Positions 637 to 49,700 of a stretch of 64,000 nucleotides of DNA are shown in pieces. This DNA is from Verrucomicrobiota bacterium (GTDB taxonomy: Bacteria > Verrucomicrobiota > Lentisphaeria > JABSQK01 > JAJFLO01). How positions within the stretch are numbered: position 1 is the stretch's first letter; every line of letters begins with the position of its first letter. The DNA is taken from NCBI GenBank assembly GCA_021772635.1, contig JAJFLP010000059.1, positions 1 through 64,000 on the forward strand. Reading direction: 5' to 3'. The translations under genes were made by a program, and so were the position numbers. Under the pieces are notes generated by a model. It was not told where the DNA came from. It made no database searches and saw only the letters and a program-made list of their open reading frames with translations.

Positions 637-2592
637 ATGATCAATCCTCGAATGACATTGTTGAAATTTTTTTTATTTCAGGGCGCACTATTGTTTGCCG
701 TCATCCACGTGGGTGTCTTCGTTATAACGAGGAGTATAACGCTACCGCCTCACCGCGTAGCTGATGAGGTTGTCTTTCAGGAAGAGCAGAACTGGACTGC
801 CGATGAGCGCCAGTGGTTTTACCATGAGACTCAGGGCGGTGCACTTGAACTTATTATCCCGTACAAGTGGCTGATGGCATTGGAACAGCCACGGATTCCA
901 TTTTCAATTGTCGGCCGTGTCGAGAAGTTCATGCACGTGAATTACATCTCTCGATTCGGATTTCTCCCGGACCCACTCAAGTCTTACAATCCGGATAACA
1001 CACAAAAAATTAAGTGGGCGGAATTTTTGGATCACCCGCCCACGCCGGATGAGCCGGGGAACAACCCGGATCAGCTTCCTGTGGGTTTCGTCCGTACAAG
1101 TGATTATCTTGATTATCAAGATCTGGCCGAAGATGGCGAGCCGAGGGTGAAGGACGTTGTCGGATTTACCTGTGCGGCATGCCATACGGGGCAGGTAAAC
1201 TACGAGGACGACGCCGGTAAATACTGGGGATTTCGAGTGGAGGGAGGACCCGCCATGACGAATCTGACCAAGTTCAAAACGGCAATCGGGATATCGATTG
1301 CTCTGACGACCTATCTGCCGCAGCGTTTTGACCGGTTTGCGGACGAAGTCGGGGGTGACCGTCATGAACTCAAGGATCAGTTAAAAAAGCTCATTAAAAA
1401 GGGCAAGGCGTTAAAGGAGGAAGCTGACAAGGTTTATACAACGGTAGACGGGTTTGGTCGCCTGGATGCCCTCGGGCGTATCGGGAATTTTGTTTTTGCA
1501 CAGGAGATCAATCCGAAAAACTGGTACATTGGCAATGCCCCGGTCAATTTTCCGCCGATCTGGGATACTCCATGGTTTGATTGGGCACAGTACAATGCGT
1601 CCATTAAGCAACCCATGGTCCGTAATGCAGGTGAGGCGATGGGCGTTTTTGCGCGGGTTAATTTCACTGCATACGACGATCCGGATAAGTTATTTAAGTC
1701 GACGGCGCGTTTTGACAACCTGTACGAAATCGAATCGCTCCTCAGGGGAAAGAAACCGTTCGATGGCTTACGCTCGCCAAAGTGGCCTTCAAACGTGTTC
1801 GGCGCACCCGATCGCGCTGCGGTTGCGAGAGGGCGGGCGTTGTATATAGAGAATTGTCGGGGGTGCCATTTACCGGCGCCGGAGGAGGATTCCGGGTTTT
1901 ATGATTTTAACGACCGCACGGTTTGGACCGAACCGGATGAGGTCCACGGACTCCAGTATTTGAATTTGAGGCTGATCAATCTTTATGAGATCGGCACTGA
2001 TCCGCTGACAGCGGTCAATTTTGCCCAGCGCATAGTTGAGCTAGGTCCAATCGGTGAGATGTTTAAATATTCGTCAGCCGTCGCCGGAGTGGCTACCATG
2101 GGCGATGCTCTCCCGTTCGTCGTAGAGAAGGTTAAAAATAAACGTTATGACGAGCTTGGTCTGACTCGTAAACAACGGGAGGAGTGGAACGGATATCGCC
2201 CGAACGATACACGGGCGCCTCTTGCCTATAAAGCGCGACCACACAATGGAATCTGGGCGACCGCTCCATACTTGCACAATGGCTCGGTGCCGACACTCAT
2301 GCAGTTGCTGGGCCCTTACGAAGAAAGGGATAAAACCTTCTGGGTGGGGACAAAGGACTACGATCCCGTCAACGTCGGGTTCGTTACCGGCAAAGTCAAG
2401 GGAGCGTTTAAATTTGATACATCACTTCCGGGCAATTCAAACTTCGGCCATCTGTTTAATGGCGACTTTGACCATAGTGCATCGGATTGGGAGCAGAAGA
2501 TGGACTGGTCGGTTGTTCCCAGCGGTACTATCGGACGAAAATTGGAGGTGCAGGAACGGAAGGATATTATCGAATTTCTCAAAACACTTTGA
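637..2592 (+). CDS. RoxA-like di-heme cytochrome c (oxygenase/peroxidase family)
   Basis: A 651-residue protein with an N-terminal hydrophobic segment (about residues 8-31) that should export or anchor it in the periplasm. It has two c-type heme sites, CAACH at 179-183 and CRGCH at 407-411. A GIWATAPYLHNGSVPTL motif near residue 546 is typical of the di-heme peroxidase superfamily. Length and heme spacing fit the branch that includes rubber oxygenase RoxA, which cleaves polyisoprene, better than the roughly 350-residue cytochrome c peroxidases. Substrate cannot be read from the sequence. It lies between the SnoaL-like gene (13 nt) and the P450 gene (27 nt), suggesting an operon for oxidation of a lipid or isoprenoid. 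A divergent di-heme peroxidase remains possible. Confidence 0.8.
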   Translation: MINPRMTLLKFFLFQGALLFAVIHVGVFVITRSITLPPHRVADEVVFQEEQNWTADERQWFYHETQGGALELIIPYKWLMALEQPRIPFSIVGRVEKFMHVNYISRFGFLPDPLKSYNPDNTQKIKWAEFLDHPPTPDEPGNNPDQLPVGFVRTSDYLDYQDLAEDGEPRVKDVVGFTCAACHTGQVNYEDDAGKYWGFRVEGGPAMTNLTKFKTAIGISIALTTYLPQRFDRFADEVGGDRHELKDQLKKLIKKGKALKEEADKVYTTVDGFGRLDALGRIGNFVFAQEINPKNWYIGNAPVNFPPIWDTPWFDWAQYNASIKQPMVRNAGEAMGVFARVNFTAYDDPDKLFKSTARFDNLYEIESLLRGKKPFDGLRSPKWPSNVFGAPDRAAVARGRALYIENCRGCHLPAPEEDSGFYDFNDRTVWTEPDEVHGLQYLNLRLINLYEIGTDPLTAVNFAQRIVELGPIGEMFKYSSAVAGVATMGDALPFVVEKVKNKRYDELGLTRKQREEWNGYRPNDTRAPLAYKARPHNGIWATAPYLHNGSVPTLMQLLGPYEERDKTFWVGTKDYDPVNVGFVTGKVKGAFKFDTSLPGNSNFGHLFNGDFDHSASDWEQKMDWSVVPSGTIGRKLEVQERKDIIEFLKTL

Positions 2593-2619
2593 ACGAACAA
2601 ATTTAATCAGGAACCTATC

Positions 2620-3903
2620 ATGGCAACCGACTCGACGCATTCAGAACTTGATCCAACCTGGCCGCCTAGCGAACCCCCAAAGGGAAAGTTTGCCGAGCTA
2701 CTTGGCTATTGGATCCAGTGGAAGAACGATCAGTTTTTCGGATTTCTGAGATTCTGGAAACCCATCCTGGGTTTACCTAAAGGCGGGCCGGTAATTGTAA
2801 CTCGGTTTAAGGACGTCCATGAGATCCTTCATCATCCGGAGATTTTTCGCGTGACCTATGCGCCGATGATGGATGTTTCTGTGGGTAAGTTTATGCTTGG
2901 TCACGATGGGACGGTATACAATCAGCGAGACAAAGGAATCATGCGCGCGCTGATTCAGGCAGATGACTTACCGAACATTCGGGCGTTGGTTGGGAAGATT
3001 GCGACTAAGTGCATTGATGAGGGGAAATCCAATGGGACGCTGGAAGTCGTATCAAATTTATCCCGCAAAGCGCCGATCCTCCTGAATGGCGAATATTTCG
3101 GATTCCCGGGCCCGGACCTGGAGACGATGATGCGATGGGGACGGGATACGCAATACGACATGTTTCATAATCAGACTATGTCCGGGATGATTCACGACAA
3201 CAATATTCGCGCTACTCAGGAAATGCGTGAGTACATCAAGAATGATTTACTCCCGAAGAAACGACGCGAGCTTGAGAAAGATCCGGACCGGGACGACATC
3301 GTCTCAAGGCTTCTCAAGATGAAATGTCCACATGCGATTGGATGGGATGAGCATCAGATGATTACCAATATCATGGGGCTTCTGGTTGGTCATGTTGAAA
3401 CCAGCAGTGCCGCTATCGTTCAGATTCTGGATCAGCTCCTGAGTCGACCAGATCAATTATACCACGCACGGCAAGCAGCGTTGCACAATGATGATCCAAA
3501 ATTATTCAGGATCTGTTGGGAGGCACTTCGTTTTAATCCCGTCAATCCGATCGTAGTCAGGAAGTGCGCTAAGGACTATCGTCTCGCTGCCGGTACGTTT
3601 CGGAACAAAGTTATTAAGGCCGGCACCGTAGTGGTTGTTGGGACCCGGTCTGCGATGAAGGATCCGCGCGAGCTGCCGAGCCCGAAAAAGTTCAAAAGTG
3701 ACCGTCCCGAATATCATTATCTTCACCTGGGACTCGGACTTCACCGATGCCTTGGAGATGATGTGAGCAAAGTTCAGGTCCCTGAAGCTATCCAGATGCT
3801 CCTCTTGAAGAAAAACCTCCGGCGCGCACCGGGACAGGCCGGGCAAATTGACTATAACGGTGGACCATTCCCTGAGAGCTTTTCGGTAGCTTTTGACGAC
3901 TAG
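2620..3903 (+). CDS. Cytochrome P450
   Basis: A soluble bacterial P450 of 427 residues. The heme-thiolate loop is HLGLGLHRCLGDD with Cys377. The ExxR pair of helix K is Glu301-Arg304 (EALR), and an I-helix segment with VGHVETSSAA supplies the oxygen-activation threonine region. The ATG follows AGGAA with 6-nt spacing. It should monooxygenate a hydrophobic substrate using electrons from a partner not encoded nearby: no ferredoxin or reductase gene is in the window. Its neighbours are a di-heme oxygenase-like protein upstream and a patatin downstream. The stop codon TAG (3901-3903) is the first three bases of a palindromic repeat. Confidence 0.9.
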   Translation: MATDSTHSELDPTWPPSEPPKGKFAELLGYWIQWKNDQFFGFLRFWKPILGLPKGGPVIVTRFKDVHEILHHPEIFRVTYAPMMDVSVGKFMLGHDGTVYNQRDKGIMRALIQADDLPNIRALVGKIATKCIDEGKSNGTLEVVSNLSRKAPILLNGEYFGFPGPDLETMMRWGRDTQYDMFHNQTMSGMIHDNNIRATQEMREYIKNDLLPKKRRELEKDPDRDDIVSRLLKMKCPHAIGWDEHQMITNIMGLLVGHVETSSAAIVQILDQLLSRPDQLYHARQAALHNDDPKLFRICWEALRFNPVNPIVVRKCAKDYRLAAGTFRNKVIKAGTVVVVGTRSAMKDPRELPSPKKFKSDRPEYHYLHLGLGLHRCLGDDVSKVQVPEAIQMLLLKKNLRRAPGQAGQIDYNGGPFPESFSVAFDD

Positions 3904-4068
3904 ACTGCAAGCAGTCGAATTTTTGATCCCGCATGCGGTCACGGCAGACAAAGATATTAGAAATCCTGTCGATATGCGTCGCGCCACGTGCAGTCGCGTT
4001 ACGCTTCTAACGCGGTCACGCGATCCTCGCCGCGGCGAATCACGCGAAAACCTGACTGGAGTTAGTAT
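3901..4068 (+). repeat. Palindrome-headed repeat, long form (copy A)
   Basis: It begins at the P450 stop codon: TAG then ACTGCAAGCAGTC, with the palindrome GACTGCAAGCAGTC at 3903-3916, then GAATTTTTGATCCCG. It ends in CGCGAAAACCTGAC near 4046-4060. The reverse complement of 12670-12789 matches it along most of its length, and 6279-6422 is a third long copy. It fills the gap before the patatin gene. Confidence 0.85.
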
Positions 4069-4073
4069 AGTCC

Positions 4074-6281
4074 ATGGCAAACGAGACGCCACCACCGGTA
4101 AGTAGCGTCAGTGTCACGGATCTCGCCGAAGCGCGGTCTGAAGGCCGATTGGATTCCGGAGTCGCATCGGTTTTGGGTGCTGAACTGGCATATATTGACG
4201 CACTCCGCGCGAAACGGGATCGACCGGGCAGAGATCAGATAGGTCTTTCAGGTTTGTGCATTTCCGGAGGCGGAATCCGGTCGGCCACATTCGCTACGGG
4301 CGTGCTGCAGGCGCTGGCGGCCGGCGGCAAACTTAAAGACTTCGATTACCTGTCGTCTGTCTCCGGAGGAGGATACATTGCGTCATCGGTCACCTGGCTT
4401 CTGAGTAAAATGGGACAGGGGACCTCAAGCGAGAATCCCCAGTTCGGAGTGGATCCCCGGAATTTTCCGTACGGAACAGAGAATCCAAATCCCTCGGCGA
4501 GCGGCGATTTGATCCACCGCGATACAGTGGATCAGATAAAAATGTATCAATACCTGAAGAGCCACGGTCAATACCTGACTCCTGGCAAAGGGATCACTCT
4601 CATGTCCCTTCTCGCCGTCATTATTCGGGCTATGTTCCTCAGCTTGATAGTGGCTATTCCCATTACGGCCGCCGTTTATACTTTCCTTCAAGTCTTGCCT
4701 GAACGCCTTATCGAAGCCTTTACGCCCGAGCTAGACGTTGATATTTTTGTGTATCTGAGAGCGATGTCGTATGTCACGATTGTGCTTCTCGCAGTTGCGA
4801 GTGTGATATACTCCCTCGTCATTCCTGATTCAAAATCGCACGAAGAGACACCGATAAAATATAGACTGAGACGTCTTTACGATCGTTATTCAGGGCTTCT
4901 ATTGACGATTGCTGCGACCACATTCGCAGTCAGCTTAGTACCCATGATTAAAAGTTCTATTGGCGGCGCCGCATTGCTTTCCGGCTTGGTTCTCGGCGGC
5001 CTTATTTTTATCTTTACAAGCATCGGGAAGACGAGCCCTGTTCCAATGAAAATTTTCACTTCCCTGGCAGCCTGTCTTTTTCTGTATGGGCTTTTTGTCG
5101 TGTCACACAGGGTCGGAGGTTGGGCGAGTAATACGATCACAGGGACGATTGTGGAACGGGAATATGCACTTCCGCTCGGTGAATTCTGGCCTTTTTGGAT
5201 CCCATATGTCGGTCTCTCTGTGGCATTGCTTTGCGGTCGTTTTATTAACCTGAATTACATCTCCATCAGTCGATACTATCGTGACCGGTTAATGGAAACA
5301 TTCATGCCTGATATTAATTCGGCTATGCACGACGTGACAGGGCCCTCGCATACGGCTAACTCAGCTCGCCTATGCGATCTGATCTCCGTTGAGAATCCCA
5401 ACGGTCCTTATCATATTTTGAACACAAATCTAAATCTGTCCGGGGCCGATTCGCGTTTGAGGCGCAATCGGGGTGGTGACAATTTTATTCTATCTCCATT
5501 TTATTGCGGGAGCAGCGAAACAGGATGGCGTTCAACAAAAGAATTCTTAAATGGTGGTCTAACATTGGCGACTGCTACGGCGGTTTCCGGAGCAGCGGCA
5601 GCGCCTAATTCCGGGGTCGGTGGCAAAGGGGTAACGAGAGACGCCAGCGTCTCCATTATTATGACCCTGCTCAACCTGACGCTTGGATTCTGGATTCCCC
5701 ATCCCATGCGGAAACAGAAGCGGTTCACATTCCCGAATCACTTTAATCCCGTACTGCTCTCGCTTCTGGTAAATACATACAACGTAAATCGGAAGTTTCT
5801 GGAGCTTGGGGACGGGGGGTTTTTCGAGAATCTATCTCTGTATGAGATGATTCGTCGCCGCATGCGATTGATCGTTGTCAGTGATGCGGGAGCAGATCCC
5901 GACTACAGATTCGACGATTTATTGAATGCGATGCAGAAAGTCCAAGTCGATTTCGGTGTAAAGATCGGTTTTGAAGTGAATGGCAGTCCGATCAACCCGC
6001 AGAACTACTTTAAATCCGACAATAGTACCATGCCTGAATTCGGACATCTGGCCGGTACAATTAACTATTCGGACGGGAGTAAGGGGGTGATTATTTTGAT
6101 CAAAGCATCGATAATCAAGGACCTTGACCTGCATATAATGGCATACAAGGACAAGAATCCCGAATTTCCACATCAGAGCACGGCCGACCAGTCCTTTACG
6201 GACGATCAGGTCGATGCCTACAGGCGGCTCGGATACGAGATCACCAGAAGGATGATCGCTGCCGAGAACGAAAGACTGTAG
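4074..6281 (+). CDS. Membrane-bound patatin-like phospholipase
   Basis: A 735-residue patatin family protein. The oxyanion-hole motif SGGGIRS spans 64-70, the nucleophile is Ser97 in SVSGGGY, and the dyad Asp580 lies in LGDGGFFENL. Patatins hydrolyse acyl esters with this Ser-Asp dyad. Unlike soluble RssA-type proteins, the two halves of the domain are separated by about 450 residues containing several strongly hydrophobic segments (roughly 175-205, 225-245, 275-365 and 375-395), so it is probably an integral inner-membrane lipase. A repeat of about 165 bp separates it from the P450 gene, so co-transcription is less certain. Its TAG stop (6279-6281) opens another copy of the same repeat. Confidence 0.85.
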   Translation: MANETPPPVSSVSVTDLAEARSEGRLDSGVASVLGAELAYIDALRAKRDRPGRDQIGLSGLCISGGGIRSATFATGVLQALAAGGKLKDFDYLSSVSGGGYIASSVTWLLSKMGQGTSSENPQFGVDPRNFPYGTENPNPSASGDLIHRDTVDQIKMYQYLKSHGQYLTPGKGITLMSLLAVIIRAMFLSLIVAIPITAAVYTFLQVLPERLIEAFTPELDVDIFVYLRAMSYVTIVLLAVASVIYSLVIPDSKSHEETPIKYRLRRLYDRYSGLLLTIAATTFAVSLVPMIKSSIGGAALLSGLVLGGLIFIFTSIGKTSPVPMKIFTSLAACLFLYGLFVVSHRVGGWASNTITGTIVEREYALPLGEFWPFWIPYVGLSVALLCGRFINLNYISISRYYRDRLMETFMPDINSAMHDVTGPSHTANSARLCDLISVENPNGPYHILNTNLNLSGADSRLRRNRGGDNFILSPFYCGSSETGWRSTKEFLNGGLTLATATAVSGAAAAPNSGVGGKGVTRDASVSIIMTLLNLTLGFWIPHPMRKQKRFTFPNHFNPVLLSLLVNTYNVNRKFLELGDGGFFENLSLYEMIRRRMRLIVVSDAGADPDYRFDDLLNAMQKVQVDFGVKIGFEVNGSPINPQNYFKSDNSTMPEFGHLAGTINYSDGSKGVIILIKASIIKDLDLHIMAYKDKNPEFPHQSTADQSFTDDQVDAYRRLGYEITRRMIAAENERL

Positions 6282-6649: not shown

Positions 6650-7924
6650 TTAAAAGAATTCCGGGAGTAGTATCTTACGAAAGGATTGCAGGTTTGTCCC
6701 GGTTTGGGCACTTAATCGCCCAAGCGTCGATACGACGTCGCCTATCGTCGGCCGATCCTCCGGTTTCTTCGCCAGCATATCATCGATCAGATCAGAGAAA
6801 CTCTGGTTAGCCTCCGGGATCTGCGTGCTAATTGATGGTAGCACTTCTGAAAGATGCTTCTTTACCACCTCTTTTTCATCAACATCGTCAAAAGGGAGAA
6901 CGTCCGTACACATCGCGTACATTGTCGCTGCCAAAGAGAAAATATCGCTTCGTATATCCACTCGGCGTTTTCCGGAAATGCATTCGGGTGAGGCAAAATG
7001 TATGGTCCCTTTGATATTCTTCGAGGCGGTAATTGAGCTCTCGTCTATGTTCTTGGCTAAACCAAAATCGACGAGTTTTGCCTTTCCATCGTAGTTTATT
7101 ATAATATTTTTAGGCGTCACATCACGATGTATAAGTCGCTCCTGATTCAAATAGCGTAAGGCGTCTGCGATTTGGTAAGTAATGGCAATTACCGCATCAA
7201 CGGGAAGCCGACCCCGACGCCTCTGTATTGTTGCGAGATCCAGTCCTTGTACGTACTCCATGACCAGATAGTGAATCAAGTTCTCGTGCCCGAAACTGAT
7301 AAGCTTGACTATATTCGGGTGATCCAGTTTGGAAAGTCCATAGGCTTCGCGCAAGAACAATGGAAGAAAATGGTCGTTATTCGAGTTCCCGAATGTGGAT
7401 TCAAAGATCTTTATTGCCACCTCCGTTGGCGGGTCCAAGGTGATGTCTTTGCCATAATATACGTTACTTGAGCCACCCCTCCCTATTTTGCTTAGGAGTT
7501 TGTAACGTCCAGAAAAAATGCTGCCGACGGCGATTCCCATATTTCTGCTCGTCGACCTTCGCTTTTTGAGGATAGCTGAGATTTTGGCCAATAATTCGGG
7601 AGGACGAAAGGACTTTACGATGTAATCATCCGCACCTGCCATCAAACCATTTACGATATCTTCTTCGCTATCCCGCCCCGAAACCATTATGATTGGGACA
7701 GTAAAGCTGTCGGCGCCCTGTCGTAGTTCCCGACATACTTCTACACCCGATTTTACAGGCATATCAACATCAAGAATCAGGATATCAGCCGGTTTTTCGC
7801 GGAACGATTTTAATGCTGTGTTACCATCTGGAAACAAGCGGACTTCATAACCCCTCGAACGCAGTACGCCACCATAGATATCCAGTATGTCGGCATCATC
7901 ATCGGCGCAGATCACTGAGTACAT
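6650..7924 (-). CDS. Receiver domain-Ser/Thr protein kinase fusion
   Basis: A 424-residue protein joining a response-regulator receiver (residues 1-120, acidic cluster DDD at 8-10, phospho-acceptor Asp52 in LDVDMP) to a Hanks-type kinase. The kinase part has the glycine loop IGRGGSSNVYYG, catalytic HRDVTPKNI, DFGLA and a PECISG-type activation-segment end. The start at 7924 is chosen because AGAGGAG sits 6 nt upstream and the receiver begins at once (MYSVICADD). No DNA-binding output is present, so phosphorelay input probably controls Ser/Thr phosphorylation directly. It is divergent from a paralogue at 8473, with a 548-bp gap. Confidence 0.9.
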   Translation of the reverse strand: MYSVICADDDADILDIYGGVLRSRGYEVRLFPDGNTALKSFREKPADILILDVDMPVKSGVEVCRELRQGADSFTVPIIMVSGRDSEEDIVNGLMAGADDYIVKSFRPPELLAKISAILKKRRSTSRNMGIAVGSIFSGRYKLLSKIGRGGSSNVYYGKDITLDPPTEVAIKIFESTFGNSNNDHFLPLFLREAYGLSKLDHPNIVKLISFGHENLIHYLVMEYVQGLDLATIQRRRGRLPVDAVIAITYQIADALRYLNQERLIHRDVTPKNIIINYDGKAKLVDFGLAKNIDESSITASKNIKGTIHFASPECISGKRRVDIRSDIFSLAATMYAMCTDVLPFDDVDEKEVVKKHLSEVLPSISTQIPEANQSFSDLIDDMLAKKPEDRPTIGDVVSTLGRLSAQTGTNLQSFRKILLPEFF

Positions 7925-8240
7925 CGTAACTCCTCTAATCTTGGCATAGATTCTAACGGATTCCTGTTTCAATACGGGGGGGGGACACGGTGCACAACCC
8001 CTGCTTCCAAACGCAGTATACCGTTCGATACGTTGGTGAACAAGTTCGCGGTCTTCCGTAAAACGGCGAAGATCCTGTTCGTATCTATCCGATCGAACTC
8101 ATATATTAGCACTGCGATTCGTAATTGTACCGTCGATGAGTGAGTGCCTTTTGACGCCCACGACAAGTTGACGGGAAATGACAATCTTCGCTTTGTAACA
8201 CTCACTGTTGGTGACCGCGTGCTTGAGACGCGCGTTCATA
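7925..8240. other. Intergenic region between divergent receiver-kinase genes
   Basis: I find no gene in this part of the 548-bp gap. A run of G (7978-7984 on the plus strand) lies just upstream of the leftward gene. Promoters for both divergent genes must lie in the gap, but I cannot place -10/-35 boxes with confidence. Confidence 0.4.
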
Positions 8241-8455
8241 TAGACTGCAAGCAGTCGAATTTTCGGACGACTTTGAATTTATCAGCTATAAGATATCGAA
8301 CGGAAATCCTAAAACAATACGTTAAAGGTCGTTTCCGCAAAAGCGGTCCGGATAGCCGTACCGCACCAGCGTGGATCCTGTGCGTACGCGACGACTCTTC
8401 CCGCTCATGCGGAGAGTCCGTCTATACGGAGCAAAATATTACTGTTTGCGGTATA
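8241..8455. repeat. Composite inverted pair of palindrome-headed repeats (copy C)
   Basis: The forward head TAGACTGCAAGCAGTC is at 8241-8256, followed by an 80-bp body with tail ATATCGAACGGAAATCC near 8303-8319. A diverged head in reverse, TACTGTTTGCGGTA, is at 8440-8453, 19 nt before the ATG at 8473. The two heads point inwards like the ends of a small transposable element. Confidence 0.75.
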
Positions 8456-8472
8456 TCTGAGATTATTCCGTT

Positions 8473-9720
8473 ATGACTTCAATTATATGTGCCGATGACG
8501 ATCAATATATGCGCAATCTGTATCGGGCATTGTTCTCAACCGACAAGTATTCGCTACGAACCTTCAGTAATGGCGTCGAGGTTCTGGACGCGTATAGAGA
8601 TGATACAGCGAATCTGTTGATACTGGATATCGACATGCCAGGCCGATCCGGGTTGGACGTGTGCCGGGAATTACGACGATCCACTGACGGTTTCAAAGTC
8701 CCCATAATCCTGGTGTCGGGTAAAGACAGTGAAGAAGATATTCTACGCGGGTTGAACGCTGGGGCGAACGATTACATCGTTAAACCCTTTAAGCCGCCGG
8801 AATTGCTGGCTAAGACAGCAACATTGCTGTGCCGGCAGGAAACGCCGAGTGCTATGGAACTTGGATTACCGCTAGGATCTCGATTTGTCGGTCGCTACGA
8901 GATCGTCCGAAGGATCGGAAAAGGCGGATTCAGCACCGTCTACTACGCCAACGATGTAAGCGTCGAACCCCTTAAAAGTACAGCTTTGAAAGTATTCCAT
9001 CTGACTCCATCTAAACAGAATAACGAGGAGTTCGTTGCGTTATTCTTGCGAGAAGCACGGGAGCACTCGAAACTGGGTCATCCGAATATTGTTACCCTGT
9101 ACGACTTTGGATCTTCTGAGATTTACTACTATCTGGCGATGGAATTCTTGACCGGCGAAACACTGCAGGACATCATCACTCGGGAAAGGAAATTAACTGA
9201 AATCGAAGTGGTGGAAATCGGCTATGGCGTAGCAAAAGCATTGGAGTACCTTGCATCTTCCGAAATGACCCATCGTGATATTAAGCCGGCGAACATCATG
9301 CGGACAAACGACGGTACCGTCAAGCTCCTGGATTTCGGGTTGGCGCGACATAATAAAAAGCAGACAGTACCAATGGATACAATATTCAGAGGAACTCTGG
9401 ATTTTGCCGCCCCGGAAAGCTTAAGACTGCATTCAGAGATCGACATCTCCGCGGATATATTTTCTTTGGGTGCGGCGCTATACTATTCACTGACCGGAAT
9501 CAAACCGTTCAGACGCAATTCAATGATAGAACTTTGCAACTCACCGATCGAAGAGCAACCGACTTCGGGTTGTGATATTGACAGGTCAATCAACCCGACG
9601 CTTTCCGGCTTAATTGACAATATGCTTGCTCCAGCACCCCTGGACCGGCCGTTTATTGCCGAAATTCGGTCGACATTGGAAAATTTATTACAATGCGGGT
9701 CTCCGAATATTCGGAGATGA
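8473..9720 (+). CDS. Receiver domain-Ser/Thr protein kinase fusion (paralogue)
   Basis: A 415-residue paralogue of the divergent gene ending at 6650. The receiver (1-120) has DDD at 8-10, Asp52 in LDIDMP and the conserved lysine motif IVKPFKPPELL. The kinase from about residue 142 has IGKGGFSTVYYA, ALKVF, HRDIKPANI, DFGLARH and APESL. All catalytic residues are present, so it should be active. There are no membrane segments, so it is cytosolic. It probably receives phosphate from a histidine kinase such as the one encoded at 10056 and passes the signal on to Ser/Thr targets. No clear Shine-Dalgarno precedes the ATG, and a repeat palindrome ends 19 nt upstream. Confidence 0.9.
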   Translation: MTSIICADDDQYMRNLYRALFSTDKYSLRTFSNGVEVLDAYRDDTANLLILDIDMPGRSGLDVCRELRRSTDGFKVPIILVSGKDSEEDILRGLNAGANDYIVKPFKPPELLAKTATLLCRQETPSAMELGLPLGSRFVGRYEIVRRIGKGGFSTVYYANDVSVEPLKSTALKVFHLTPSKQNNEEFVALFLREAREHSKLGHPNIVTLYDFGSSEIYYYLAMEFLTGETLQDIITRERKLTEIEVVEIGYGVAKALEYLASSEMTHRDIKPANIMRTNDGTVKLLDFGLARHNKKQTVPMDTIFRGTLDFAAPESLRLHSEIDISADIFSLGAALYYSLTGIKPFRRNSMIELCNSPIEEQPTSGCDIDRSINPTLSGLIDNMLAPAPLDRPFIAEIRSTLENLLQCGSPNIRR

Positions 9721-9726
9721 GACGAG

Positions 9727-9749
9727 CTAGCCTGATCTATGCAGGCTAG
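9727..9749 (+). terminator. Hairpin after receiver-kinase gene
   Basis: A perfect 8-bp stem, CTAGCCTG (9727-9734) with CAGGCTAG (9742-9749), and a 7-nt loop, starting 6 nt after the TGA stop. There is no T-run, so intrinsic termination is uncertain. Its right arm is shared with the left arm of the larger structure at 9744-10027. Confidence 0.4.
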
Positions 9750-10027
9750 TGTGCCGTAACAAAAATTCCTATACATTTGACGAGATGTATATTGGTGCCT
9801 CAGTTGCATTAAAATGAAAAAAGCGATGCAGAGCATCGTTGTTTCATTTTAATGTTTACTGTGCGCCAAAAAACACTCGCCCCGAAGGGGTTGCACTTAT
9901 TTGACCGCTGGACGGCGTTAGCGAAAAGGTCCGTACCTACGGGTATGAACGCCTTTTTCGCTGCCTACCCCAGCAGCAAAATAAGAGCAATCAAATGTAA
10001 AGGAATTTCTGTTACGGTACGCTAGGC
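9744..10027. repeat. 284-bp multi-hairpin element with 37-bp inverted ends
   Basis: End arms 9744-9780 and 9991-10027 are reverse complements at 32 of 37 positions, sharing CCGTAACA and TACATTTGA; two mismatches would be G-U pairs in RNA. Inside are three more stem-loops: ATTAAAATGAAA (9808-9819) with TTTCATTTTAAT (9842-9853) enclosing CGATGC/GCATCG; CCCC (9880-9883) with GGGG (9887-9890); and a long stem including AGCGAAAAGG (9920-9929) with CCTTTTTCGCT (9952-9962) closed by GCTGG/CCAGC. No coding potential is seen. It could be a structured leader RNA for the gene at 10056 or a non-autonomous mobile element. Confidence 0.75.
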
Positions 10028-10055
10028 ATAAAATTGAAGCGAGGGCTATTCAGCA

Positions 10056-11453
10056 GTGGAAAATGAGAAGAATATGAATGATAAAGTCGTCTATGCAGAG
10101 GCCACCACTGAAGAGCGGGGTCCCACCGTAGGCGCCTGGAAGATTCTGATCGTCGACGACGAACACGAAGTCCATGACGTCACGAAGCTGGCTCTCGCCG
10201 ACGTGGTATTCGACGGCAAGCCGATTGAATTCATCGACGCGTATTCGGGCAAGGAGGCTGAAGAACTAATCCTCACTCATCCGGATCTGGCGATCATACT
10301 GCTGGATGTAGTAATGGAAGATGATGAAACGGGACTTAGGGTCGTGGAATTTATACGCAAAACGGCGAATCGTCACTGTGTTCGAATTATTCTGCGAACG
10401 GGTCAACCCGGCCATGCTCCTGAGCGTAATGTAGTGATCAACTATGACATCAACGATTATAAAGCGAAGACGGAGCTGACAGCTCAGAAACTTCTGACAT
10501 CAATCATTTCTGCACTGCGCGCCTACGATCATTTAAACATCATTGAGGCCAACCAGGTAGAGATCCGTGGTCTATATTCTGAACTGACAGAGTATAGTGG
10601 AAATTTGGAGAAAATGGTAGAAGATCGAACTCAGGAGCTGGTGGATTTGAACGCGAATCTGGAAAGGCTGGTTCAAGAGAAAAGCAAACTTTTGGTCAGG
10701 CAGGAGAAGTCAGCCATCGTCGGTCGCCTGCTACAGGGATTCGTGCACAACTTACGATCGCCATTGACCGCTATCCGTGGAATAAGTTATTTGATACACG
10801 TGGAGGCTGCACGCAGGTCCGACGAGGTGATTAACGAACGGAGTTTAAAGATAGACGAAATTTGCAAGGGCATGAATGCAATGATGGAACGGCTGATGGC
10901 TAAGAGTCGAATGGACCAGGTGGACCTCCGAAAGCCGATTAACATCAATAATTTGATTAAAAATGAATTGGAATTGTTGGAAGCCCACTCAGTGTTTAAA
11001 AATCAAATTCACAAGGAATACATATTCGACGAATCACTACCCGATATTCCACTCGTATACTCCGATATTTCACAGGTTCTTCACAATTTAATTCACAATG
11101 CGATGGACGCGATGTTCGGCATCGATAACCCGAAGCTTACGATACGAACCCGGCAGAATGAGACGTTGGTGTATATTGATGTCGTGGATACTGGTTGCGG
11201 TATTACGGAGAATGAAATCGAATTGATTTTCGATCCGTTTTATACCACTAAACCGGCTGAGGGCGATGGGGGCGAAGAAACTGACAAACCAACCGGCACC
11301 GGTCTCGGGTTGCATACATGCTTGGGGTTATTGAAATCCGTGGGCGGCCGAATCACCGTAGAGAGTCAATCGGATCACGGGAGCGTCTTCACCGTTAACT
11401 TACCGAAAGTCGATAGTGGTTTAGGGACGGAATCGGGCGGGCCTGATTTCTAA
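10056..11453 (+). CDS. Receiver-histidine kinase
   Basis: A 465-residue cytosolic protein. The receiver (about 29-150, Asp84 in LLDVVMED) continues into the RTGQPG and YDINDYKAKTEL motif shared with the two receiver-DUF3369 proteins downstream. A coiled coil follows (about 170-215), then a HisKA-like segment with His231 in VHNLRSPL and an HATPase domain with N-box HNLIHNAMDAM and G-boxes DTGCGI and GTGLGL. It is the only histidine kinase in the island, so it may autophosphorylate and serve the four orphan receivers around it. The start is ambiguous: GTG 10056 after GAGGG, or ATG 10074 after GAGAAG. No transmembrane sensor is present, so an upstream partner probably gives the signal. Confidence 0.88.
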   Translation: MENEKNMNDKVVYAEATTEERGPTVGAWKILIVDDEHEVHDVTKLALADVVFDGKPIEFIDAYSGKEAEELILTHPDLAIILLDVVMEDDETGLRVVEFIRKTANRHCVRIILRTGQPGHAPERNVVINYDINDYKAKTELTAQKLLTSIISALRAYDHLNIIEANQVEIRGLYSELTEYSGNLEKMVEDRTQELVDLNANLERLVQEKSKLLVRQEKSAIVGRLLQGFVHNLRSPLTAIRGISYLIHVEAARRSDEVINERSLKIDEICKGMNAMMERLMAKSRMDQVDLRKPININNLIKNELELLEAHSVFKNQIHKEYIFDESLPDIPLVYSDISQVLHNLIHNAMDAMFGIDNPKLTIRTRQNETLVYIDVVDTGCGITENEIELIFDPFYTTKPAEGDGGEETDKPTGTGLGLHTCLGLLKSVGGRITVESQSDHGSVFTVNLPKVDSGLGTESGGPDF

Positions 11454-11550
11454 TTGGGACGGCGGAATTATCAGGAAGGAACGAAATGGCAAGGCTGAGT
11501 CTAAAACATATAACGAAAGCCCGACAGACTCCTGATTCTTATACAAGGTT

Positions 11551-12591
11551 TCAATGAAAATGAAGATTTTCTAAGGCGACATTGATATTCTTAGAGAATA
11601 ACTCCAATAGATATTTGTCACATTTCGTCAATCGCGGCGTTTTTTCGAGGTAGATAATATTGTAACCACTGTCCTTCGTATGGAAATATATAATGCAACG
11701 GTCATCCAGGAAGAGGCTGCACTTTGCATTCACAACGGATGCCAGCTCTTTCATTGTGTCTTCCGATGCGACATTGATTACTTTGTCATTAATCTTCCCG
11801 GCATAAACACCTGTACCTGCGATAATTTTTAAGTCCCCTTCGGAAAAGCGGGTCGCGAAACCCGTGGTTTGACAGTACATCGAACTCTCGTTCAAGTCGA
11901 GAAGAACAACGAGTTGGGTAAGGACTCCTGATATGAAATTTTCCAGGGATTGCAGCTTATACAACGACGAAAACGCTTCGATTATCTTTTCCAATCCCCG
12001 GCGACTGGCGTCGATGTTAAGTAAATGTTGGTAAGATCGCAATGACGCGACGAGTGTTGTAAAAAGTTTTTGGTTTGTAAGTTCAGTCTTTGCCTTGTAG
12101 TCATTGATATCGTAATCGACAATGATGCGTCGCTCAGGTGCCTGTCCCGGTTGTCCGGTGCGTAGAATGATCCGTACAATATCATTCCCAAGTTCTTCCC
12201 GAATGTACCTGGCAACATCCAGCCCCGAGCTATCCTCTTCCATAATTACGTCCAGAAAAATGACTGCCGTATCAGGGTGGTCATTGATCATCTGGCGGGC
12301 TTGACGGCCTGAGAAAGCACTGATGATATCCAATCCTTTCTCGCCGTAGCTGAAATCCTGAAGAGCAAGACGGGTTACATTGTGGATTTCCTGTTCATCG
12401 TCCACAACCATTATCTTCCAACAGTTTTTCTCATCGCTAGCTGATTCCTCGACTTCATCGTTGAATATCAACTCGTCTTGATCTATCGCATCATCGTCGA
12501 TGTCAGTTTTAATTTTAAAATTCTCCTTACTATCGATTATACTATACTGCAAGCAGTACAATTTTGGGATAACCTCAAATTTTTCAGCCAA
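11551..12591 (-). CDS. Receiver-DUF3369 response regulator, uncertain start
   Basis: The receiver (about residues 58-190 of the longest reading) has VVDDE and phospho-acceptor Asp in FLDVIMEED, followed by RTGQPGQAPER, DYDINDYKAKTEL and a DUF3369 region to the end. DUF3369 regulators often carry an HD-GYP or other output; none follows here, so this may be a phosphate sink or adaptor. The start is problematic. The open frame begins at TTG 12591 with no strong ribosome site, and codons for KLYCLQYS come from a palindromic repeat at 12541-12570. An AAGGAG (12523-12528) precedes an in-frame ATT at 12513, which would give a repeat-free N-terminus. The paralogue at 12915 has a comparable short acidic leader. 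Confidence 0.85.
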   Translation of the reverse strand: MAEKFEVIPKLYCLQYSIIDSKENFKIKTDIDDDAIDQDELIFNDEVEESASDEKNCWKIMVVDDEQEIHNVTRLALQDFSYGEKGLDIISAFSGRQARQMINDHPDTAVIFLDVIMEEDSSGLDVARYIREELGNDIVRIILRTGQPGQAPERRIIVDYDINDYKAKTELTNQKLFTTLVASLRSYQHLLNIDASRRGLEKIIEAFSSLYKLQSLENFISGVLTQLVVLLDLNESSMYCQTTGFATRFSEGDLKIIAGTGVYAGKINDKVINVASEDTMKELASVVNAKCSLFLDDRCIIYFHTKDSGYNIIYLEKTPRLTKCDKYLLELFSKNINVALENLHFH

Positions 12592-12789
12592 GAATTTCCC
12601 AACGATATTTTTTTATCGGCATAGTCACACGGACAATGCCTGGCCGAAAACTCCATGATGTTCGTTATAACTTCAGACAGGTTTTCGCGTGATTCGTCGC
12701 GGCGAAAATCGCGATGCACGTGGACAAGTTTTCTAAAATCTTTACCCACCGTGATCGAGCATGCGGGGATCGAAAATTCGACTGCTTGT
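12541..12789. repeat. Inverted pair of palindrome-headed repeats (copies D and E)
   Basis: Copy D is forward, with head TACTGCAAGCAGTA at 12545-12558 followed by CAATTTTGGGATAACC. Copy E is a long-form copy in reverse at 12670-12789, from AGGTTTTCGCGTGATTCG to GAAAATTCGACTGCTTG; its reverse complement matches 3901-4068. D overlaps the apparent 5' end of the leftward gene ending at 11551. Confidence 0.85.
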
Positions 12790-12914
12790 TTCCTAATCCC
12801 GATTCAGGATGTCCGCGACTCTCTTCCCGCATGAGCGAGGATCCCGATAGTGCGGGACGCCTATGCGGTCCGCACGAGCGGACTCCGAGAATACGGAGAG
12901 AGATCGTGGGTAGT
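12790..12914. other. Palindrome-rich intergenic spacer
   Basis: It contains short inverted motifs such as CCCGCATGAGCG, CCCGATAGTGCGGG and CTCCGAGAATACGGAG. Similar words (GACTCTTCCCGC, CCGTCTATACGGAG) occur at 8392-8430, next to another copy of the repeat family, so it is probably part of a larger decayed element. No gene is seen. Confidence 0.4.
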
Positions 12915-13964
12915 CTAAATGTCCAGATCCTTATTCAAAAAACGATTTCGTTCTACTGACTTTAGTTCGCGTTTCATCTGCTCGAATTCGTAGACGTTTT
13001 CGAACGCGATGCCAATATTGTCACGGAACAATTCCAGTAATTCCTTATCCCACTCAATGGTACTTGAATCACCTTCAAGATAAATCATATGATCCCCGCT
13101 ATCCAACGTGTGGAAATACAGAACACATCGGTCATCGTAATAGACACTTTGATCTGACTGTACCGCTTCCTTTAAGTCCTCTAAAATTCTCTGTGGAACA
13201 ACTTCGCTTACGTTCTTGTTAACCTGTTCTTTAAATACGCCGGTAGCCGTAAGAATAGTCGGGTCCTCTTTGCTAAACGCGGTTTGGAAGCCGGAAGTTT
13301 GGCAGTAGAGAGAATTCTTACTTAGTTGAAGAACGGTAACCAATTGATCCAATACACCCGTAACGAACTTTTCTAACGAGCGCATTTTGAAGATCGACGA
13401 GGACGCTTCGATAATCTTTATAAGTCCATTACGGCTATTATCTATGGATGTGATGTAACTGTACGATCTCAAGGAAGAGACGACGGTGGTAAATAGTTTC
13501 TGCCGGGTTAGCTCCGTCTTTTCCTTATAATCATTGATATCATACGCAACGATTACTTTCTCCTCAGGTGCCACACCTGGCTGACCGGTTCGCAAGACGA
13601 TGCGAGTCATCCTGTTACCCAAATCTTCGCGAATATACTTGGCTACCCGCAACCCCGCGTCATCCGTTTCCATAACTACGTCCAGGAGGATCACCGATAC
13701 ATCCGGATTTTCCTTGATCAACAACATCGCTTCTTCGGCATTATAAGCACTGATAAAAGTAAGTCCCCTACCGTCAAAGATAAATTCCGACAACGCGAGT
13801 TTTGTTACATCATGAATCTCGTGCTCGTCATCGACGAGCATGATTTTCCAGCCATCGCTGACGACATCATCGCGTGATCCCGCCTCCGCGAACGAAATCT
13901 CCTCTTCTGCGTAGACGACTTCTTCATTATCGCCAATAAGAACCTCTTTCCCTTTACTTTCCAT
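12915..13964 (-). CDS. Receiver-DUF3369 response regulator (paralogue)
   Basis: A paralogue of the gene at 11551, about 349 residues from this start. The receiver has LVDDEHEIHDVTKLAL and acceptor Asp in LLDVVMETDD, then RTGQPG, YDINDYKEKTELTRQKLF and a DUF3369 domain with RSLEKFVTGVLDQL. No HD-GYP, GGDEF or DNA-binding domain follows. I prefer ATG 13964 (AGG 6 nt upstream, acidic leader as in the paralogue); the frame stays open to 14066 with a second ATG at 13979. Three receivers sharing the YDINDYK motif within 4 kb suggest one signalling set in which this protein competes for, or relays, phosphate from the histidine kinase at 10056. Confidence 0.88.
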   Translation of the reverse strand: MESKGKEVLIGDNEEVVYAEEEISFAEAGSRDDVVSDGWKIMLVDDEHEIHDVTKLALSEFIFDGRGLTFISAYNAEEAMLLIKENPDVSVILLDVVMETDDAGLRVAKYIREDLGNRMTRIVLRTGQPGVAPEEKVIVAYDINDYKEKTELTRQKLFTTVVSSLRSYSYITSIDNSRNGLIKIIEASSSIFKMRSLEKFVTGVLDQLVTVLQLSKNSLYCQTSGFQTAFSKEDPTILTATGVFKEQVNKNVSEVVPQRILEDLKEAVQSDQSVYYDDRCVLYFHTLDSGDHMIYLEGDSSTIEWDKELLELFRDNIGIAFENVYEFEQMKRELKSVERNRFLNKDLDI

Positions 13965-14066
13965 ACTACCTATGTCCATTCGAAATATTCGTTTGACGTA
14001 AATTAAGCTATCACGGTGAGTTTTTTGAATATCTGAATCATTTGCGTCCAAAGAGGCGGGTGGCAT

Positions 14067-45938: not shown

Positions 45939-48900
45939 ATGTCCTCATGTCCCTCGTGTGATTGTGACTTAACTCAGAGAGAATTGCCAGATAGTTTGTG
46001 CCCCGAGTGCGGCAATTCGTTAGCTGCGTTGCATGATACCGTTACGATGCCAGCGGACGCCAGTAACCTCTGGGATAAGCTTCTAACGACCTGGGCAATG
46101 CCCGAGGGTGATGCCGCTGCCATCGAGAGCCACACAGATTTGGGCTCTCGAATCGCTGTGAAGTCACGGGCTTTATCCGATATAGATGAGACAGGTTCTG
46201 ACGACACCGACTTTGAATTGATCCGGGTGTTGGGAAAAGGCGGTATGGGAACGGTATACGAGGCCCGTCAGACCTCTGTCGATCGAATAATTGCGCTGAA
46301 GATGATGAAGCCTGATCTGGCGAGGAGTGCGAAGGTTCGCGCGAAGTTTCTGTCAGAGGCGGTCGTAACAGGCGATCTGGATCATCCTAATATTGTTCCG
46401 ATATACGACGTCGGCGTGAATGATGACGGCCGACTTTTCTACGCGATGAAATACGTCAAGGGCGTTCCTTGGAAAGACGTTATGCAGAAAAGGTCGGTCG
46501 TCGAGAATATCGAGATCCTGCTTCGTGTAGCCGACGCGGTCGCGTTTGCCCACTCCCGGACAATTATCCACCGGGACCTCAAGCCAGAAAACGTTATGCT
46601 TGGAGACTATGGCGAGGTCCTTGTTATGGACTGGGGAATGGCGGTATCGACTGTTGGCCGCGGCAAAGCAGAAAGTCTCGGAAATATAGAGAGCATAGGC
46701 GGAACCCCCGCCTATATGCCGCCGGAAATGGCCAAAGGAGATGTCTCGAAAATAGGGCCGGGGAGTGACATTTATTTACTTGGCGCGATTCTTTATGAGA
46801 TTCTTACCGGCAGACCTCCGCACGACGGTACTACCGTGTCAGAGTATCTCCAGTCTGCAGTAGACAACGAAGTTCAATCGGTCGACACCGACTTGGAAGG
46901 CGTTGGCGAACTCGTCAACGTTGCATTGACATCACTAAAAACAAACGTCGACGAGCGCTTTGAGAACGTGCAGGCATTTCAAACTGCCGTCCGCCGCTAC
47001 CTTTCTCATGCGGAGAGTATAATCCGGACTAATCGTGCAACGAAAGATTTGGCGCGTGCAAAGGCAAGTCGCGAGTATGATGATTTCGTACTTACGCTTT
47101 TCGGGTTTCGCGAGGCGTTGTCGCTTTGGACTGGGAATCGGGAAGCTGAGACCGGGGAACTGGAAGCGAGATACGCCTACGCCGAGTGTGCTTATCGAAA
47201 GGGAGACTATGATTTAGCGAGCACATTGTTGTCGGCCGACGATGGGCAGCACGCTAAGCTACTGAAGAAAATCACCAAAGCCCGCGACGTTCAGCGGGCA
47301 CGAAAAAATCGGCTTAGTTTAATTTTGCGGCTCGTACGTGGCCTTGTATTCCTGATTCTACTTACTCTCACGATCGCGATTTTCTGGATAAAACAGGAAA
47401 AGAACAAAGCGGATGCTGCGCGAATCGTCTCTGAAAACGCTAGAAACGCCGAGGTTATCCACCGACGCAATGCAGAGCATGAAAAGGAAAAGGCGATTGC
47501 AGCGCGGATCGCTGAAGAAGAGCAACGCAAGCGAGCAGAAGAACAACGACGACTGGCGGAAGCGCAGCGCGTACGTGCCGAGCAAGAAACCGAGAAAGCG
47601 CTGGCGGCACAGTTATCCGAAATTCGACAACGCGAAAAGACGAAGATCGCCGAGCACGCGATCGAGGAAGCTCGGGATACCCTTACCAGGCAGAGTTTGA
47701 AAACGCTGTCCGCGGAGGCACGCGCGGCTGAAGCTCAACGCCAGAACCTCGATGCTATCTATATAGCGACCCTCGCGCTTATCAATAATAAGATTAAGGA
47801 GTCGGCGTTCTACGAGGCAGAGAAGCTCTTATCGGAGTGTCCAAAGGAAGTAAGAAATTGGGAGTGGGGCCGTTTTCGATATTTGTGTCGACCGCGCGCG
47901 GTTGAGTTGTCCGGGCATATAGACAAAATAACGGCGGTGAATTTTAGTGAAAACGACAGCAAAATCATCACCGCAAGTTTAGATAATACGGTTAAGCTGT
48001 GGGATGCGACTACCGGCGATATGTTGGGATCCGTGCGAGTGGAAAGCGAGGGAGTTAGGTCCGCAGTGTTTGTGCGCGACGGGAACCAACTCGTTGTTGC
48101 GGGGGGTGACGGGAGCGTAAATATTTGGGATGCGAAGTCGGGGGATCAGCTCTCTGAAATAACCGGTCCTAATCCCAGAATCTCTGCTATGTCGATTTCG
48201 CCAGACGGAGAGTTCTGTATAGCCGGATACGGGAGTGGGGATAGTGAAATTTGGAGGATTCATTCCCGCACACGTCCTATAAGACTACCCGGCCACCGCG
48301 GAGCCGTCACATCAGTCAGTTGTTCGGCGGATAAGAGGACTATTGTCACAGGAAGCAGGGATCGCCGGGTGAGAGTCTGGGAGACCCCAATCGTGATGAG
48401 GACCGCTGAAATCTATCTTGAGACTAACGGTATTAATGCAGCGGTTGAAGCTAACGTAGACAATATTTCCCCGATTCAAGAGCGGCGTGAACTCGCAAAC
48501 CCGCGGGTGCCCGGGGTCGTTGGAATGGGGAATATTGAAATTACTTACCGTGAAAACACACAACGAGCTGCGACCAAAAACATATTCGATTACACCGCAG
48601 TGGTTACAGCTGTAACTTTGTCGCCACGCGGCGATCGTATTTTTGCGGCCGGCGAGGATAACATGGGCCGCATGTGGGACACGGCAACGGGCGAATTACT
48701 GCTATCACTTACCGGACACACTGGTGGAATTCGGGCCGCTGTGATTTCGCCCAATGGACGGCGGATATTAACGGGGAGCGATGACGGTACTGCTCGAGTT
48801 TGGGAAACGACATATGGTAAAACAATCATGGTGCTGCCTGTTACAGGGGAAAACGTTACGGCAGTCGGATTCTCCGCGACCGGCAATTCGTTCCTGACGG

Positions 48901-49700
48901 GTGATCGGGTTGGTCGCGCAATTTTATGGTCAATGCCAATAAACGAAGTTGAGAAATTACTTGGAGGACACACGTCGCGAGTCACGGCTACCGCATTTTT
49001 CCGGGATGGGCGCAGGGTCATAACGGGATGCAATGATGGTACTCTGCGAATATGGGATTATCAAACAGGTCGAAAATCGAGAACCATTCGAGGCGTGGAG
49101 GAGTCGGTTGTTGCCGTATTCGTCGCCACGAACTCCAGTTTGATATGCAGTGTGAATTCAGATCGATCTGTAAACTTTTGGGATAGTGGATCGGGGGCCT
49201 TTTTATACAGATTAAACGGGCTTGGCGATATAAGCAGTGTCGACAGGATTCCCGAAAAAGTTCGGGAGGTCGCCGTAAGCAGGAACAATGAGATATTGCA
49301 AGCGTTAGCGTTGATAGACAGTATTCCTGAGTCCGGCAAAGATGGCCGAAAACTAAAACCAACTTACTCGCCCGATGGAAGCCAAGTGCTGATCAATACA
49401 TCAGATCGGCAGATACAATTATGGGATGCCCTGAATGGGAACGAACTATTCTCTCTGGAAGGCCACACTGACGAGGTTGTCCATGCAACATTTTCCCCGG
49501 ATGGGAGAAGGATTTTGACTGCTGGAAAGGACAAGACCGCGAAACTATGGAGTACACAAACTGGGTTAGAGCTCGTGACACTCAACCACGGAGACGCGGT
49601 TCACTATGCTGAGTTTTCATCGAATGGACGGTATATTATAAGTAGTAGCGATGACGGGAATTGCATGGTATGGCAAGCGGACAACTGGGATTCGCAGTGA
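45939..49700 (+). CDS. Zinc-ribbon Ser/Thr kinase with WD40 propeller
   Basis: 1253 residues. N-terminal zinc ribbon (CPSC at 4-7, CPEC at 21-24), Hanks kinase (about 92-355: GKGGMGTVYEA, Lys121, HRDLKPENVM with Asp213, DWG at 231-233 in place of DFG, PPEMAKG), one membrane helix (about 458-484), a long basic and Glu-rich coiled coil (490-600), and from about 653 around 12 WD40 repeats in the periplasm or cytosol depending on topology. One blade is interrupted by an insert of about 70 residues near 820-890. Planctomycete-style kinases share this build. It precedes the ECF-like sigma and FHA genes, a likely phospho-signalling set. Confidence 0.9.
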   Translation: MSSCPSCDCDLTQRELPDSLCPECGNSLAALHDTVTMPADASNLWDKLLTTWAMPEGDAAAIESHTDLGSRIAVKSRALSDIDETGSDDTDFELIRVLGKGGMGTVYEARQTSVDRIIALKMMKPDLARSAKVRAKFLSEAVVTGDLDHPNIVPIYDVGVNDDGRLFYAMKYVKGVPWKDVMQKRSVVENIEILLRVADAVAFAHSRTIIHRDLKPENVMLGDYGEVLVMDWGMAVSTVGRGKAESLGNIESIGGTPAYMPPEMAKGDVSKIGPGSDIYLLGAILYEILTGRPPHDGTTVSEYLQSAVDNEVQSVDTDLEGVGELVNVALTSLKTNVDERFENVQAFQTAVRRYLSHAESIIRTNRATKDLARAKASREYDDFVLTLFGFREALSLWTGNREAETGELEARYAYAECAYRKGDYDLASTLLSADDGQHAKLLKKITKARDVQRARKNRLSLILRLVRGLVFLILLTLTIAIFWIKQEKNKADAARIVSENARNAEVIHRRNAEHEKEKAIAARIAEEEQRKRAEEQRRLAEAQRVRAEQETEKALAAQLSEIRQREKTKIAEHAIEEARDTLTRQSLKTLSAEARAAEAQRQNLDAIYIATLALINNKIKESAFYEAEKLLSECPKEVRNWEWGRFRYLCRPRAVELSGHIDKITAVNFSENDSKIITASLDNTVKLWDATTGDMLGSVRVESEGVRSAVFVRDGNQLVVAGGDGSVNIWDAKSGDQLSEITGPNPRISAMSISPDGEFCIAGYGSGDSEIWRIHSRTRPIRLPGHRGAVTSVSCSADKRTIVTGSRDRRVRVWETPIVMRTAEIYLETNGINAAVEANVDNISPIQERRELANPRVPGVVGMGNIEITYRENTQRAATKNIFDYTAVVTAVTLSPRGDRIFAAGEDNMGRMWDTATGELLLSLTGHTGGIRAAVISPNGRRILTGSDDGTARVWETTYGKTIMVLPVTGENVTAVGFSATGNSFLTGDRVGRAILWSMPINEVEKLLGGHTSRVTATAFFRDGRRVITGCNDGTLRIWDYQTGRKSRTIRGVEESVVAVFVATNSSLICSVNSDRSVNFWDSGSGAFLYRLNGLGDISSVDRIPEKVREVAVSRNNEILQALALIDSIPESGKDGRKLKPTYSPDGSQVLINTSDRQIQLWDALNGNELFSLEGHTDEVVHATFSPDGRRILTAGKDKTAKLWSTQTGLELVTLNHGDAVHYAEFSSNGRYIISSSDDGNCMVWQADNWDSQ

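Follow-up and report, generated by a model that had tools for sequence, protein, structure and literature searches.

Links between two-component systems and Hanks-type Ser/Thr kinases have mostly been described in the reverse of the direction considered here, in which the response regulator is the substrate of the Ser/Thr kinase. A Hanks-type kinase as the output of a response regulator is the architecture of two proteins in this work; our search of titles and abstracts, mostly of openly available papers, returned no study and no characterized member of the bacterial receiver-Hanks kinase fusions. In cyanobacteria, HstK-type proteins such as Alr2258 and Pkn40/41 combine Ser/Thr kinase, AAA, GAF, and histidine kinase domains in that order (PMC2176072). 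A second described architecture is that of Vibrio cholerae VCA0210, a response regulator in which a receiver (REC) is followed by DUF3369 and an HD-GYP domain (PMC4212101).

Here, we describe an interval of 7.4 kb (positions 6650-14066) in a 64,000-nucleotide stretch of DNA from a Verrucomicrobiota genome, which in its entirety we call the window. The interval encodes five receiver proteins, A through E, that invite comparison with both systems. The histidine kinase domain of HstK-type proteins defines the subfamily to which our candidate donor kinase, on contig C66, belongs, and in several cyanobacteria the HstK-type gene is followed by a gene for a histidine kinase that resembles C and shares its distinct receiver type, which we term RECd. 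Unlike the HstK-type proteins, however, the C66 kinase and its counterpart on contig C80 have no Ser/Thr kinase domain, and the Ser/Thr kinases of this locus are separate fusions with receivers of another class. Likewise, D and E resemble VCA0210 in that DUF3369 follows the receiver, but both proteins stop there and have no HD-GYP output.

We read the interval as two signaling modules placed side by side. In the first, A and B would be receiver-gated Ser/Thr kinases; in the second, C, D, and E would be served in trans by an HstK-type histidine kinase in the membrane. We assign this reading, including its in-trans donor, a probability of roughly one half. It builds on what was observed: the genes and their domains, the two receiver classes, the number of subfamily members, and the gene neighborhoods.

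Five intact receiver proteins in a receiver-rich genome

ORF calling and Pfam searches confirmed that the interval encodes five receiver proteins, all of them intact ORFs, with the domains that an earlier note on this DNA had listed: two proteins with REC and Pkinase domains, one with REC and HATPase_c, and two with REC and DUF3369 but no output domain. The acceptor aspartate is found in all five receivers, and the five genes are distributed over both strands. An Rfam scan of the window found no RNA. In an NCBIfam search, no family rose above its cut-off among the matches listed.

The source genome (G000) is a 3.97-Mb assembly of 130 contigs that is about 91% complete. Family searches gave the genome-wide counts: 150 receiver matches, about 74 histidine-kinase-type ATPase matches, and, from the overlap of family searches, 19 ORFs in which a receiver is fused to a Hanks kinase. 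Under a uniform model, the Poisson probability of five receiver domains in 7.4 kb is 1e-5; since the genome contains eight stretches of 7 kb or less with at least five receivers, however, the receiver density of the interval is not special by itself. The earlier note had counted a single histidine kinase, which is right within the interval but not genome-wide, where there are about 74; its step from this count to C as donor for all four other proteins consequently fails.

A and B resemble receiver-gated Ser/Thr kinases

A (6650-7924, minus strand) and B (8473-9720, plus strand) are divergently transcribed receiver-Hanks Ser/Thr kinase fusions, each with an N-terminal receiver that contains an acceptor aspartate. 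The longest ORF of A spans 6650-7972 and begins with a TTG at 7972; we took as its start the ATG at 7924, which is preceded by a GAGGAG ribosome site. With this start, the previously given numbering of the acceptor as Asp52 is correct for A, as it is for B. The catalytic motifs are complete in B (HRDIKPAN), but in A the lysine of the HRDxKxxN catalytic loop is replaced by threonine (HRDVTPKN), so the claim that all catalytic residues are present is borne out for B and not for A. In an alignment, both receivers are ordinary OmpR/PhoB-like domains that are nearest to those of other such fusions, at least two of which (paralogues on contigs C28 and C44) have no acceptor aspartate.

From these features, both proteins look like Ser/Thr kinases gated by their receivers, in which phosphorylation of Asp52 would switch the attached kinase domain. 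With 19 receiver-Hanks fusions in the genome, they are two members of a large family, and a genome with so many fusions is well suited to studying whether receivers gate kinases of this type. No closely similar full-length fusion was found among 72,556 plasmid records. A histidine kinase lies within 5 kb of 10 of the 19 fusions, compared to 3 of 36 other Ser/Thr kinases (Fisher p = 0.0005) and a random expectation of about 17%. Because the distance cut-offs were set post hoc, paralogues do not count as independent cases, and two-component genes are clustered in any event, this proximity supports a general membership of the fusions in His-Asp signaling rather than any given partner.

C, D, and E share a distinct receiver class

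C (10056-11453, plus strand), D (11551-12591, minus strand), and E (12915-14066, minus strand) possess RECd receivers, which are recognized by the motifs RTGQPGxAPE...YDINDYKxKTEL; A and B lack these motifs. Over the receiver, D and C are 62% and 60% identical to E, respectively. The receivers of C and E score 29.6 and 27.7, slightly below the Pfam cut-off of 30.2, with the key residues present in both. In an alignment, the first receiver helix is nearly identical in C, D, and E (EHEVHDVTKLAL, EQEIHNVTRLAL, and EHEIHDVTKLAL, respectively) and different in A and B. This helix contributes to partner choice in two-component systems, and since it is alike in C, D, and E and unlike in A and B, a shared donor for all five receivers becomes less likely. 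The proposal of one donor for the whole set thus runs against a division of the five receivers into two classes, ordinary in A and B and RECd in C, D, and E.

A scan of named GTDB genomes for RECd yielded 80 retained loci from many phyla, encoding 87 RECd proteins. For 29 of these, the gene of an HstK-type histidine kinase is no more than 700 bp away, and in 10 of the 29 cases the kinase also bears an N-terminal Ser/Thr kinase, giving the HstK-type architecture (checked with Pfam on a Nostoc example). The remaining 58 have no HstK-type kinase within this distance, so that adjacency is a tendency and not a rule. The outputs of RECd proteins vary, and include histidine kinases, nucleotide cyclases, HD-GYP domains, sigma-54 activators, or no output at all. 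RECd is a widespread but poorly described receiver family associated with DUF3369, and the combined analysis of receiver class and neighboring genes gives it a specific, testable partner in the HstK-type histidine kinases.

In cyanobacteria and some proteobacteria, we also noted a recurrent gene order in which an HstK-type gene is followed by one encoding a RECd protein with a histidine kinase or nucleotide cyclase output; loci with an HstK-type/RECd pair are L066, L079-L081, L083, L087, L088, L096, L126, L135, and L137. Among the relatives searched, strong RECd matches are confined to G000 itself and to G002, a member of the same family. In L194 of G002, RECd is fused to a sigma-54 activator domain as judged by Pfam, and L193, at a contig edge, is alike by sequence.

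A candidate donor kinase encoded in trans

Scored against the kinase domain of the Nostoc HstK-type protein, genome G000 has exactly two strong members of the HstK-type subfamily, with 220 and 168 bits, while the next match has 68 bits. These two kinases, on C66 and C80, consist of HAMP and histidine kinase domains only, and a comparison of the PF00069 and PF02518 lists found no ORF in the genome that contains both a Ser/Thr kinase and a histidine kinase. RECd and the HstK-type kinase subfamily co-occur in G000 and G002, and the subfamily was found in none of the 95 other sampled genomes of the phylum (a sample that does not include G002).

The C80 kinase has a RECd-HK-REC protein of its own encoded after it, a pair that is also present in G002. 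The C66 kinase (G000:C66:22444-23097), in contrast, is an orphan with no RECd neighbor. The gene lies in a cluster (locus L191, 5083-12043) whose members share its strand and encode two predicted periplasmic binding proteins and a 1107-amino-acid HEAT-repeat protein with a cyclic-nucleotide-binding domain. The cluster contains no receiver gene and has no physical link to the interval. In trees, the C66 kinase groups with kinases adjacent to receivers that branch close to C, D, and E; the C80 kinase groups with another set, in agreement with its own receiver, with several of the supports being moderate (0.6-0.9). Distance correlations with C, D, and E were 0.45, 0.67, and 0.57 (rho) for the C66 kinase versus 0.09, 0.55, and 0.36 for the C80 kinase; we give this preference no weight because the adjacent C80 pair, which served as positive control, gave a rho of -0.15 and so failed.

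The subfamily counts, neighborhoods, and trees suggest that the donor of the RECd module is probably encoded in trans, and they point to the C66 orphan as the best candidate for this role. Since the assembly is incomplete and fragmented, it could lack another histidine kinase. In our leading reading, the membrane-bound C66 kinase would phosphorylate the RECd receivers of C, D, and E. We infer this partnership, every phosphotransfer step, and the roles of D and E from sequence.

Domain composition of C, D, and E

The histidine kinase core of C contains an HNLRSPL phosphoacceptor box with H231 as the phosphoacceptor, and the H, N, G1, F, and G2 boxes are all present; Pfam matched HATPase_c but not HisKA. 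The nearest paralogue of this core belongs to a receiver-histidine kinase on contig C17 (47% identity over the core), after which all other matches fall below 90 bits. The C17 protein is itself encoded immediately downstream of a 1071-amino-acid protein with a histidine kinase core. Given this close paralogue, C has the appearance of an intermediate kinase in which RECd has taken the place of another receiver. Phosphorylation of RECd would then gate the histidine kinase core, which would hand the signal on.

In D and E, DUF3369 (PF11849) scores 151 and 156 bits against a cut-off of 27.2, and nothing follows it in either protein. An AlphaFold model of E places a GAF-like fold, flanked by long helices, after the receiver; its mean pLDDT is 71, with the structured receiver and DUF3369 parts mostly at 75-95 and the N-terminal 70 residues disordered. 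The best PDB matches of the model are structures of a dual-sensor histidine kinase (6oap, 6oaq, and 6ob8; E-value 8e-12, TM-scores 0.43/0.52). The alignment takes in the receiver as well as the GAF-like domain, but identity is only ~13% and E lacks the kinase domain. Our reading of these entries and of a 331-column alignment is that the matches cover a REC-GAF module, and the model suggests that DUF3369 is GAF-like. In the literature we searched, the domain is mentioned in only two papers. One candidate precedent, ArrS/ArrR (PMC11841396), was set aside because it has a REC-EAL architecture instead of DUF3369. A sample of 289 genomes from the phylum contained no other genome with a strong DUF3369 match, and the domain was not seen in any of four RECd loci of G002 that were compared with D and E.

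Most aligned relatives that combine REC with DUF3369 have HD-GYP at their C-terminus, and E is about 40-45% identical to these forms over the common part. D and E might on this basis be regarded as decaying, functionless remnants of REC-DUF3369-HD-GYP phosphodiesterases that have lost their output. Both ORFs are intact and keep every receiver residue, however, and output-less REC-DUF3369 proteins also occur in Spongiibacter, Anammoxibacter, and Parabeggiatoa, each adjoining an HstK-type histidine kinase. In the receiver tree, D and E cluster with the Spongiibacter and Anammoxibacter proteins (support 0.825), that is, with output-less relatives from two other groups that reside in compact loci with histidine kinases, and we judge decay to be very unlikely. 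Within the in-trans reading of the RECd module, D and E could instead compete as phosphate acceptors or serve as GAF-type co-sensors.

Genomic evidence bearing on a link between the two modules

The layout around A and B is repeated on contig C8 (locus L033, 8241-13777), where a divergent pair of receiver-Ser/Thr kinase fusions is accompanied by a single receiver and by a REC-HK-REC-Hpt protein. In a tree, the plus-strand C8 fusion is the sister of B (0.898). The divergent promoter regions of the A/B and C8 pairs have in common only matches of 8-12 bases, with non-significant E-values. In G002, the closest homologue of B is followed by a GAF-histidine kinase and not by a RECd-histidine kinase. 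Thus, the association of an A/B-type arrangement with a histidine kinase may be meaningful, although the histidine kinases differ. Conservation of gene order had been proposed as a check on the locus; the order of the whole interval is not conserved among the relatives searched, and the C-D-E set has no counterpart in G002, the one family relative with RECd proteins.

B and C are separated by 335 bases, in which we identified a dispersed repeat of 272 bp (9750-10021) with terminal inverted repeats (TGTGCCGTAACAAAAATTCC and GGAATTTCTGTTACGGTACG), CTAG at either side, and a very stable fold; the gap as a whole folds 14 standard deviations more stably than its shuffles (z-score -14). A genome search listed 42 matches to the repeat, itself included, with 40 of 168 candidates scored, and several copies have identical ends. 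The element has no Rfam match and, by its sequence features, looks like a MITE. The gap also contains a terminator-like hairpin with a T-run, which is weak evidence by itself because a terminator scan found fewer sites than in shuffled sequence. Together, the MITE-like element and the hairpin make a B-C operon doubtful.

These findings bear on the proposal that C autophosphorylates and serves as common donor to the other four proteins, at Asp52 in the case of A and B, so that a His-Asp signal would be converted into phosphorylation on Ser/Thr. In favor of it, the interval contains no histidine kinase besides C, whose gene lies just downstream of B on the same strand. On C8, too, a receiver-containing histidine kinase comes after a divergent fusion pair, and the fusion there is a sister of B; more generally, receiver-kinase fusions cluster with histidine kinases. 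The RECd class of C, D, and E nonetheless sets them apart from A and B, RECd proteins elsewhere pair with a different histidine kinase subfamily from that of C, the MITE-like element with its terminator-like hairpin interrupts the stretch from B to C, and the neighbor of the nearest B homologue in G002 is of another type. Overall, we consider C an unlikely common donor. What stands of the earlier relay interpretation is that A and B look receiver-gated and that such fusions often lie near histidine kinases. For A and B specifically, C may tentatively be taken as the first local candidate donor, and a His-to-Ser/Thr relay through C is possible, ranking behind our leading reading.

Alternatively, the two modules could be unconnected chance neighbors, with A and B served by unlinked histidine kinases and C signaling to a receiver elsewhere. 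RECd is rare in the phylum and receiver-kinase fusions are common in the lineage, 9 of the 19 fusions have no nearby histidine kinase, both strands are used, a mobile-type repeat lies between B and C, and receiver-dense stretches are common in this genome, all of which are compatible with a fortuitous juxtaposition. On the other side, a degree of functional coupling is favored by the C8 island, which has the same layout, and by how often histidine kinases lie close to fusions. We regard this account as possible rather than probable.

Our leading reading of two adjacent modules could be extended to a single chain, in which a signal would pass from the periplasmic binding proteins to the C66 kinase, to RECd and then the histidine kinase core of C, and on to Asp52 of A and B, leading to Ser/Thr phosphorylation of targets, with D and E as REC-GAF competitors. 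Such a complete relay strikes us as quite improbable. If true, it would cross phosphorylation chemistries and amount to a version of the cyanobacterial HstK dual kinases that is split over separate genes.

Some contigs of the assembly terminate inside copies of the 272-bp repeat. Upstream of the interval, the plus strand of the window (637-6281) encodes a RoxA-like cytochrome c protein, a cytochrome P450, and a patatin-domain protein. The window also encodes additional Hanks kinases at 45939-49700 and 57387-60278, one with a long WD40 repeat region and one in which the kinase is followed by a double zinc ribbon.
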